Source of the DNA: Candidatus Ozemibacter sp.
Lineage (GTDB): Bacteria > Muiribacteriota > Ozemobacteria > Ozemobacterales > Ozemobacteraceae
Direction of reading: 5' to 3'
NCBI GenBank assembly: GCA_030446435.1
Contig: JASURT010000003.1
Span: forward strand, 1-48,150
DNA: 48,150 nt
The notes under the pieces were generated by a model. It searched no databases. It was not told where the DNA came from and saw only the letters and a program-made list of their open reading frames with translations. A program made the translations under genes and the position numbers. Of the stretch, positions 6,967 through 20,135 are shown one piece after another (the first letter of the stretch is position 1; each line of letters starts with the position of its first letter).

Positions 6967-7590
6967 TTATTTAGTGAATTCAATGATTGCCATTTCAGCA
7001 TTATCGCCACGGCGATTGCCGAGTTTGTAAATTCTGGTATAGCCGCCGCTGATATTATCGAAGCGGGGGGCGATACGGTTGAGAAGCTTGTTGACTGTGC
7101 CTTCAACTCTCAGAATTCTCTGGGCATTCTTTCTTTCCTTCTTGATTTCCTTGCCATCTTTACCTTTGACTGTTCGGCTGCAGGTTGCAGGAATATAGTC
7201 AACGATGAAATCTGGTTTTGGATTCTTTTCAGGATCAGCGATGTACTTTTCAGCAGCTTCTCTGTTTTCTTTGCTCAGATTAGAGAGATATTTCTTGATG
7301 TTGTCGCGGCCGAGAATTTCGCGGTCGCCACAGCCATGGAAATAACCTTCGAGCAGAGTTCTTTTAGAAGCTTTAAGTGCTCTGGTCTGCTGTTCAGTTT
7401 CGCCCTTAACATTGTGAAATTTCTTGGCAAGAGAAATTGCTTTTTCGATTTCTCTGCGAAGATCTTTCGCTTTATGAAGGGTGGTTTCGATTTTTTCGTA
7501 TTTTACGAGAGAAGTGCACAGAGAGCGGAACAAAGCCTTTCTCTGGTGTGATTCTCTGCCAAATTTTCGTCCAATTTTGAGATGTCTCAT
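6967..7590 (-). CDS. rplQ: Ribosomal protein L17 with a large internal insertion
   Basis: L17 binds 23S rRNA near the polypeptide exit tunnel. The normal N-terminal part (MRHLKIGRKFGRESHQRKAL... to about residue 61) and C-terminal part (VNKLLNRIAPRF... YTRIYKLGNRRGDNAEM, about 166-207) are present and well conserved. Between them sit about 80-100 extra residues (roughly 62-165), charged and Lys-rich, which are absent from the E. coli protein of about 127 residues. The total of 207 is therefore long for the family. The ATG overlaps the rpoA stop as ATGA. It is the last ribosomal gene of the superoperon. Confidence 0.96.
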   Translation of the reverse strand: MRHLKIGRKFGRESHQRKALFRSLCTSLVKYEKIETTLHKAKDLRREIEKAISLAKKFHNVKGETEQQTRALKASKRTLLEGYFHGCGDREILGRDNIKKYLSNLSKENREAAEKYIADPEKNPKPDFIVDYIPATCSRTVKGKDGKEIKKERKNAQRILRVEGTVNKLLNRIAPRFDNISGGYTRIYKLGNRRGDNAEMAIIEFTK

Positions 7591-9694: not shown

Positions 9695-10060
9695 TTATTT
9701 GCCTTTTCTAATGGCTTTTCTCGGACCTTTGCGGGTGCGAGCGTTAGTTTTAGTTCTCTGACCGCGAAGTGGCAGACCTCTTCTGTGTCTGTAACCGCGG
9801 TAACAACCGATTTCCATAAGGCGTTTAACGTTCATGGAAACTTCACGTCGCAGATCACCTTCTACACGATATTCTGCTTCAAGAGTTTTCTTGATAAGAG
9901 AAATTTCGTCTTCAGTAAGATCTTTAACGCGTGTGTCGGGATTAATGTTGGTTTTTTCAAGAATGTGGCGTGAAGTTGTCCAGCCAATCCCGTAGATATA
10001 GGGAAGAGCTGCTTCTACTCTCTTGTTACGAGGTAGATCGACGCCTGCTATACGAGCCAT
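9695..10060 (-). CDS. rpsM: Ribosomal protein S13
   Basis: The 121-residue S13 sits in the head of the small subunit and forms intersubunit bridges. It starts [16 protein letters not shown], has the [11 protein letters not shown] helix-two-turns-helix region and ends in the basic [10 protein letters not shown] tail that reaches towards tRNA. It is a normal full-length copy. This matters because the N-terminal 78 residues of L22 in this same cluster resemble residues 1 to about 60 of this protein. Confidence 0.98.
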
Positions 10061-18711: not shown

Positions 18712-19380
18712 TTACTTTTTAACTTCGCGGTTAGCGAAGTTCTGTTTTCCGATTTTTTCGCCTTTGAAGATCCAGACTTTTACGCCAACACAGCCAAAAG
18801 TAGTAATGGCGGTATCAGTTGCATAGTCGATGTCAGCGCGAAGAGTGTGCAGTGGAACGCGACCTTCGCGAGTCCATTCACTTCTTGCGATTTCAGCACC
18901 GTTCAAACGACCGCTGCAGGTAATTTTGATACCTTTGGCGCCAGCACGCATAGCTCTGCTGATAGTCTGTTTAATCGCACGGCGATGAGAAACACGGCGT
19001 TCAAGCTGCAAAGCGATACTTTCAGCGATAAGTTTCGCTTCGATATCGGGCGCTTTGATTTCCTGGATATTCAGGAAAACTGATTTGCCGGTAAGATCTT
19101 CAAGTTCTTTTTTAAGAATTTCGACTCTTTCACCACCGCGGCCGATGATAACACCAGGCTTGGCTGTGAAAATAGTTACGCGCAGTTTGTTATTGGATTT
19201 TCTTTCGATTTCGATCTTGCCAATACCTTCACGGCGGAACTGTTTTCTGTCGATGAAGTCACGAATTTTTACATCTTCATGCAGGAATTTAGCATAGTCG
19301 CTGCGTTTGGCGAACCATCTTGAGTCCCAGGTGCGGGTAATACCAAGACGAATTCCAATAGGGTTAACTTTCTGGCCCAT
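18712..19380 (-). CDS. rpsC: Ribosomal protein S3
   Basis: The 222-residue S3 forms part of the mRNA entry channel. It starts [20 protein letters not shown], has a type II KH domain with the [14 protein letters not shown] loop (about 75-88), and ends with the C-terminal S3 domain ([38 protein letters not shown]). Its ATG overlaps the rplV stop by one base (TAATG), so translation is coupled to rplV. Confidence 0.98.
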
Positions 19381-20117
19381 TATTCTTTACCTCCCTGGGG
19401 TTTGGTGGTTTTCTTGGTGGTCTTCTTAGCTGCGGGTTTCTTTTCGGCCTTGGCAGCAGTTGTTTTTTTGGCAGGTTTTGCAGTAGTTGTCTTTTTGGCT
19501 GCTTTTTTAGCTTTAGGAGCTTCAGCAGTTTCAGCTACGGCAATTTTAGCCATTGAGAATTTTTCGCGCAAAACGATGGTTGCGTGAGAAGTTCTCTTGT
19601 TGATGCGACAGGCGCGGCCACGAGCTCTGGCCATGAATCTCTTCATGATTGAACCACCGTCAACGGTGATCTTGGCAACATAAAGGTCATCGGCTTTGAG
19701 ATCATGATTGTTGCCGGCATTGGCAATCGCAGATTTCAGAAGTTTAAGAAGAATCGGAGAGCCGCCTTTAGAAAGGAACTGAAGGATTCCAAGAGCTTCA
19801 TCAACGCTCTTGCCACGAATCTGGTCAGCAACCAGTCTAAGTTTTCTTGGGCTGATTCTTACGTTTCTTACCACTGCTCTTGGCATTTCAAGAACATCGA
19901 TAAGTCTTGATTTCTGTTTCCATGAAAGTGAACCCACTTTTGGATAAACTTTTTCAAGCTTGCCGTTAGGCTGGAGCTGACGATTATACAGACCAGCTTT
20001 GGTAAGAATGGTTTCGATTTTGGCTCTGCTATTTTTAGTATCAAGGCCTTTGATCATACGAAGGCCATTGAACAGATCTACGTCATCGGGAATGGTTACA
20101 CCTACAAGTCGTAACAT
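19380..20117 (-). CDS. rplV: Ribosomal protein L22 with an S13-like N-terminal domain and basic tail
   Basis: L22 lines the exit tunnel with a long beta-hairpin. Residues about 79-189 are a normal L22 ([52 protein letters not shown]). Before it lie 78 extra residues that start [12 protein letters not shown], contain [14 protein letters not shown] and end [17 protein letters not shown]. This matches the layout of ribosomal protein S13 (RIAGV-x-IP, an IYGIG-like turn, a later L-x-E helix). After the core comes a 56-residue Lys/Ala/Thr/Pro tail like a histone H1 tail. The normal family length is about 110; here it is 245. GGAAGGAGA lies just before the upstream ATG, supporting the long form. Confidence 0.95.
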
Positions 20118-20135
20118 TATTATTATCTCCTTCCC

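Follow-up and report, generated by a model that had tools for sequence, protein, structure and literature searches.

Results

An S13-like domain precedes the L22 core

We analysed a 48,150-nucleotide stretch of DNA from Candidatus Ozemibacter sp. (contig JASURT010000003.1 of assembly GCA_030446435.1; hereafter the window) and found that its rplV gene (19380..20117, minus strand), which encodes the 245-amino acid ribosomal protein uL22 (L22), combines an N-terminal domain resembling ribosomal protein S13 with the L22 core and a Lys/Ala-rich tail. We hold with good confidence that residues 1-78 (19884..20117, minus strand) represent a translated, folded domain that was derived from the N-terminal, H2TH-type half of S13 and fused to the native N-terminus of uL22. 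The domain is S13 residues 1-61 plus a beta-hairpin, and the evidence for it comes from conservation, a profile search of the PDB, AlphaFold2 modelling, a Foldseek search and sequence shuffles. A first-pass annotation of the window, made from the sequence alone, had proposed a resemblance to S13, and the proposal is supported by the PDB profile, by the fold search and by a second copy in another family, although no single score obtained within the window's own family is decisive. L22 is ordinary in position and unusual in content, carrying a conserved, family-wide S13-type domain.

The 78 residues do stand ahead of the core, as had been annotated. The core occupies residues 81-184 (19566..19877, minus strand; PF00237, E 7.9e-39, 132.5 bits against a cut-off of 28, profile positions 1-104 of 104), and TIGR01044 (127.6 bits, cut-off 73.65) places the protein in uL22. 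Like other bacterial uL22 proteins, it has a full, ordinary core and is encoded in the ribosomal cluster with S19 and S3 on either side, as judged from the order of open reading frames in the window with both neighbours recognised by eye from sequence, without a family search. The C-terminal tail (19380-19565, minus strand) is variable in length. The long start is preceded by the good ribosome-binding site that the first pass had noted, an AAGGAG (20127..20132, minus strand) located 9 nucleotides upstream of the ATG. The residues ahead of the core gave no Pfam or NCBIfam match that passes a curated cut-off. NCBIfam has a named family in which L22 bears an additional domain, the L22/unknown domain fusion protein (NF008917, PRK12279). 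Its model matches the core and tail of the window's L22 over positions 4-153 of 311, scoring 105.8 bits where the cut-off is 526, and leaves the N-terminal domain unmatched. Among the titles and abstract openings listed by our searches of an open-access library, we found no description of an L22 with an S13 domain.

The domain is conserved throughout one family

The comparison covered 39 genomes of the phylum Candidatus Riflebacteria in eight families (f1-f8); the window belongs to f1, which comprises 24 genomes. L22 was present in 36 of the 39 genomes (21 of 24 in f1 and 15 of 15 in f2-f8), and the three f1 genomes without it are 64-79% complete. All 21 f1 L22 proteins carry the N-terminal domain, and AGGAG precedes the long start in each of these genomes. 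A profile of the 21 domains, run against 381 genomes (342 of them outside the phylum) with at most 14 candidates scored per genome, had these same 21 as its sole matches at E ≤ 0.001. The search of L22 homologues called for in the first pass returned the domain in every f1 L22; an S13-matching domain was also found in f2, as described below. The L22 N-termini of the 14 f3-f8 genomes, read individually, begin near the core or bear other extensions and lack an S13-like domain, and the L22 of f3, f4 and f7 members differs from that of the window in starting almost at the core.

Identity to the window among ten relatives was 62-97% for the domain, 65-93% for the core and 35-81% for the Lys/Ala tail. 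Because the identities of the domain match those of the core and exceed those of the tail, we consider the domain to be under constraint like the core; its evolution resembles that of the ribosomal core, unlike that of the tail. Among the named records closest to the whole protein, best-segment identities were 85% for Candidatus Rifleibacterium amylolyticum, 82% for Candidatus Riflebacteria bacterium HGW-Riflebacteria-1, 77% for bacterium ADurb.Bin157, 74% for a further Candidatus Riflebacteria bacterium and 66% for Candidatus Ozemobacter sibiricus.

Some further observations concern L22 in these genomes. An 87% match was found in DYKG01000011.1, a record titled Candidatus Methylomirabilis; because its L22 looks identical to that of G002, a genome of the window's genus, this title is probably wrong. 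The L22 proteins of f8 (L204, L205 and L206) have a different, basic N-terminal extension of ~45 residues without visible S13 likeness. One in-frame stop, possibly an assembly error, lies within the L22 core of an f3 genome (G025, L193). Lys/Ala tails similar to that of the window's L22 occur in the L22 of f3 and f4 and in the bL17 of f2.

Sequence likeness to S13

The domain was compared with S13 proteins including the genome's own full-length copy (rpsM, 9695..10060, minus strand, 121 amino acids). The S13-like residues are as first annotated, with LRLVGVTIP at positions 2-10, IKGL at 22-25 and a last helix stretch at 64-77. The domain opens with an S13-type motif, M-x-R-[IL]-x-G-V-x-[IL]-P, with which the ensuing helix and glycine turn are in register, and it keeps the S13 numbering of R3, G6, V7, [IL]9, P10, L19, I22 and G24. 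Across the 21 f1 sequences R3, G6 and G24 are invariant and V7, P10, L19 and I22 nearly so, and all of these share their numbering with the invariant residues of S13. The likeness to residues 1-61 of bacterial uS13 (PF00416, TIGR03631) lies in the order of elements, the start motif in register and the fold match. A first block, residues 1-43 (19989..20117, minus strand), contains the N-terminal strands, helix 1, the IKGL turn and helix 2 and was delimited by profile, hhalign and AlphaFold2; a second block, residues 59-77 (19887..19943, minus strand), holds helix 3 and was aligned by eye with S13 residues 43-61. The motif [RK]-V-x-x-L-[ST] that stands ahead of helix 3 in uS13 is likewise found in most domain members. 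Unlike uS13, the domain is fused to L22, has a beta-hairpin after helix 2, is without K13 R14, and lacks the C-terminal half of S13 with its conserved region and basic tail, the L22 core following at residue 81 instead.

When the 21-domain profile was run against the PDB (177,635 distinct sequences), all eight matches at E ≤ 10 were S13, aligned residue 1 to residue 1, with a best whole-sequence E of 0.33; an S13 profile run against the same sequences found 139 at E ≤ 0.001. The first-pass annotation had staked its reading on a profile search finding S13 or H2TH similarity, and S13 is all that this profile finds in the PDB at E ≤ 10. In NCBIfam, uS13_bact was the commonest match of the f1 domains, although weak (5 of 21 members, best 0.013). 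Alignment of the f1 domains with 21 S13s by hhalign covered residues 1-43 (P 4.3e-4, probability 34%). A hidden Markov model (HMM) of the domain, run on 7,890 open frames that include loci retrieved by means of the domain itself, gave S13 as its first nine non-L22 matches.

We also scored residues 2-26 without gaps, anchored at the initial methionine, against 24 Riflebacteria S13s for 3,799 distinct starts. The 15 distinct f1 starts of the M-LR type and the f2 start ranked right behind the real S13s; the test misses three f1 members whose start is longer (L019-L021). Composition shuffles of 8 of the 21 f1 members gave, for residues 2-26, p-values between 5e-5 (the floor) and 1.5e-4; for the last helix block, the register of which was picked by eye, they ranged from 2.5e-4 to 3.3e-3. 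Taken as sequence, the f1 likeness to S13 appears as several signals, each weak, and no single score is decisive.

The predicted fold matches S13

AlphaFold2, supplied with the window's domain and six named relatives, produced a domain model with a predicted local distance difference test (pLDDT) score of 85.3 and a predicted template modelling (pTM) score of 0.69. It comprises strands at 2-4 and 7-9, helices at 15-20, 28-40 and 66-77, and hairpin strands at 45-48 and 54-57. The hairpin (about residues 44-58; 19944..19988, minus strand), delimited by the model and the family alignment, is an insertion relative to S13, and its length varies within f1. In the full-length L22 model the domain part shows the same elements.

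Among 534 Foldseek matches to the domain model, ranks 1-11 were ribosome or pre-ribosome chains (prob 0.94-1.00, TMq 0.58-0.69, best E 0.034), four of which are S13 by name (6v39_m, 8rdw_MM, 9gyt_L and 9evs_L); at rank 12 the prob was 0.21. The predicted fold is closer to S13 than to other folds, and the structure prediction on residues 1-78 that the first-pass annotation had proposed as a check matched S13 chains first. The model makes an S13-type fold very likely. The domain shares its general fold class with the H2TH proteins (Fpg/Nei, sIHF and topoisomerase VI B), of which topoisomerase VI ranked below S13 in this search. H2TH is described, in a passage of PMC5922973, as a nucleic-acid-binding element common to S13.

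A second S13-matching domain on L22

In the f2 genome (G024), a Pfam search for S13 returned the real S13 and, in addition, a match to profile positions 2-73 (E 7.5e-4 for that genome) that runs into an L22 core within one 180-residue frame. Counted from its first ATG, this L22 is 176 residues long, and S3, recognised by eye, comes immediately after it. Its N-terminal 64 residues match Pfam S13 at E 1.9e-4 and have three S13 models as their best NCBIfam matches, from 2.6e-4 (uS13_bact) to 1.4e-3. In the PDB, S13 accounted for 15 of the 19 matches at E ≤ 10, and SCO1480 together with three entries for DNA polymerase X for the rest. Against the nearest of the 24 Riflebacteria S13s, the f2 domain aligned over 60 residues without a gap, with 20 identities. 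Sequence similarity to S13 in its own right is weak in f1 (0.013-0.33) and significant in f2 (1.9e-4).

The Pfam S13 model also gave second matches elsewhere (8e-7 to 0.05) in longer frames, about half of them of 240-330 residues, which we take to be an Fpg-like length; these were viewed, with S13-L22 fusions of other phyla in mind, in 65 hand-picked genomes outside the phylum. Because frames of Fpg length match too, a Pfam S13 E-value of this size would by itself mean H2TH only. What favours S13 for the f2 N-terminus is that its match begins at position 2, together with the outcome of the PDB search.

A tree of five ribosomal proteins (L2, S19, L22 core, S3 and L16; 23 taxa, 806 columns) grouped f1 with f5-f7 (100 as printed) and set f2 apart, with f4 and f8, at supports of 44-58. 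A single fusion in an f1+f2 clade is not favoured by the tree, which separates the two, albeit with weak supports. The S13-L22 fusion is either an ancestral gain followed by several losses or the product of two gains, and it may have arisen twice in the phylum, in f1 and in f2.

Origin of the domain

A number of results weigh against our reading of the domain. None of the f1 domain matches passes a curated cut-off; the window's domain as a single sequence has no S13 match in Pfam, NCBIfam or the PDB, and BLASTP finds no match between it and the window's own S13. Searched with Pfam, the 21 f1 domains gave no S13 match, the most recurrent weak match being PF09099 (13 of 21, best 0.0054), and twelve further families match 1-3 members each; in NCBIfam, three other families match 1-2 f1 domains each. 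Full uS13 membership by PF00416 or TIGR03631 is not reached by the f2 domain either (22.2 bits against 31). In the methionine-anchored comparison the best unrelated start scored 25.0, against 26.2 for the window. The S13 invariants K13 R14 are lost in f1, where position 14 is an invariant Asp. Foldseek returned nothing at E ≤ 0.001 with the domain model, and the full-length L22 model is poor (pLDDT 51.5), with low confidence outside the domain. Finally, the ribosomal-protein tree keeps f1 and f2 unjoined, hhalign finds no direct link between their domains (P 0.16), and the f2 L22 is not within the first 140 matches of the f1 domain HMM on the 7,890 frames. PF09099 itself was set aside as the true family, its best E being just 0.0054 and its name that of an unrelated enzyme domain.

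The individually weak f1 scores, the close unrelated start, the BLASTP result and the Pfam preference for PF09099 would all suit a likeness that arose by convergence or chance, the domain then being a lineage-specific extension unrelated to S13 that happens to share a few residues with it. We consider this improbable, given that sequence profile, fold search and the clearer f2 copy all agree on S13. Descent from another H2TH or helix-hairpin-helix protein (of the Fpg/Nei, sIHF or topoisomerase VI type) is suggested by the topoisomerase VI chains at Foldseek ranks 18 and 43, by SCO1480 among the PDB matches of the f2 domain and by the second Pfam S13 matches, which often cover profile positions ~18-65, as Fpg presumably would in frames of 240-330 residues. 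The S13 start is nonetheless in register with the match running from position 1, and S13 outranks other H2TH proteins both in the PDB search with the f2 domain and in Foldseek, so that we give this origin a very small chance; Fpg/Nei, sIHF and topoisomerase VI B are not known to carry the S13 N-terminal strand motif. That the long frame is an annotation artefact, with translation starting at M78 and the upstream frame never made, is hardly credible: M78 does lie just ahead of the L22 core in the window, but it is I in 6 of the 21 f1 members, the ribosome-binding site stands at the long start in all of them, and the upstream frame is conserved as protein. Descent of the domain from S13 is the origin that we think likely.

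Exit-side proteins of the same family

Two further ribosomal proteins of the window are enlarged. The bL17 protein (rplQ, 6967..7590, minus strand), a possible partner of the domain, has ~90 inserted residues (about 63-152) by match coordinates and alignment, and the uL29 protein (rpmC, 17638..18270, minus strand) has a C-terminal extension of ~140 residues (about 72-210) by family match and alignment. By match coordinates, every one of the 23 f1 genomes in which bL17 was matched has an internal insertion, of ~60-130 residues (90 in the window); in f7 it measures 30-45 residues, and in f2-f6 and f8 it is absent or nearly so. The bL17 alignment took in nine f1 and five other sequences. The uL29 frames have 211-235 residues in 19 of the 20 f1 genomes with a match, the 20th lying at a contig end, against 73 residues in f2. 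Frames of the remaining families measure 68-149 residues, apart from an unread 220-residue frame in f5. When eight f1 uL29 sequences were aligned with seven others, the ~140-residue extension was confined to f1.

With the bL17 insertion and the uL29 extension present as well, the exit-side proteins of f1 appear to have been remodelled jointly. The idea that these changes regularly go with the domain was rejected; they accompany it in f1 only, because the f2 L22 has the domain with a 73-residue L29 and no bL17 insertion. Replacement of a lost bL32 by the domain was likewise rejected, with bL32 above its cut-off in 20 of 24 f1 genomes.

Position and possible function

Because the domain is attached at the native L22 N-terminus, it should lie on the bL17/bL32 exit side, where, as part of the mature 50S subunit, it would sit on the solvent face next to bL32/bL17 and close to the tunnel exit. 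Contacts of bL17 with uL22 and of uL22 with bL32 in the bacterial 50S are given in a passage of PMC4881015, and part of PMC13338714 names uL4, uL22, uL23, uL24 and uL29 as tunnel proteins. In this position the domain could serve as a structural clamp, specific to the lineage, that grips either 23S rRNA or the f1-specific bL17 insertion, and would stabilise the exit-side region of the 50S. Such a clamp on the 50S solvent side is the most likely function that we can name, although we propose it tentatively. Because the C-terminal half of S13 is absent and K13 R14 are lost, the domain should not perform S13's own task, and the loss of K13 R14 also makes the same RNA contact unlikely. The first-pass annotation had put a nucleic-acid-binding fold at the peptide exit site; we infer that both the placement and the binding may hold.

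The main rival to the clamp is that the S13-like domain forms a docking or gating platform by the L22/L32 groove for exit-site factors such as deformylase, methionine aminopeptidase and other nascent-chain factors. Deformylase is thought to dock in that groove and L29 to participate in trigger factor binding, according to a passage of PMC3130931, and both L22 and L29 are extended in f1; a structural role, however, accounts for the same data, and we regard docking as unlikely. A broader proposal, which we find doubtful, is that the N-terminal fold of a 30S head protein was reused on the 50S and that it forms part of a lineage-specific exit platform to which the bL17 insertion, the uL29 extension and perhaps a lengthened helix 63 of the 23S rRNA also contribute, and which alters the handling of nascent chains or exit enzymes.

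Ribosomal proteins commonly acquire tails and loops. We judge the domain to be a lineage-specific ribosomal-protein extension that is unusual through its reuse of another ribosomal protein's fold; to our knowledge, no reuse of a folded domain of one ribosomal protein on a protein of the other subunit has been described. If the fusion is what we propose, a core ribosomal protein gained a defined and traceable domain, probably near the peptide exit, in a lineage where two other proteins on that side were also altered. Escherichia coli would then not be a simple guide to the exit side of ribosomes in uncultured phyla.

23S rRNA

The 23S rRNA was recovered from 4 of 17 genomes searched among the 39 of the phylum. 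Two insertions of 6 nucleotides in the region of E. coli 1700-1740, which we take to be helix 63, were seen in both f1 sequences (L208 of G018 and L211 of G011) and were absent from the f3 and f4 sequences, numbers too small for a comparison. A large insertion of 78-79 nucleotides near E. coli 276 was considered as a binding site for the domain and rejected, as it is present in all four 23S sequences, two of which come from genomes without the domain.
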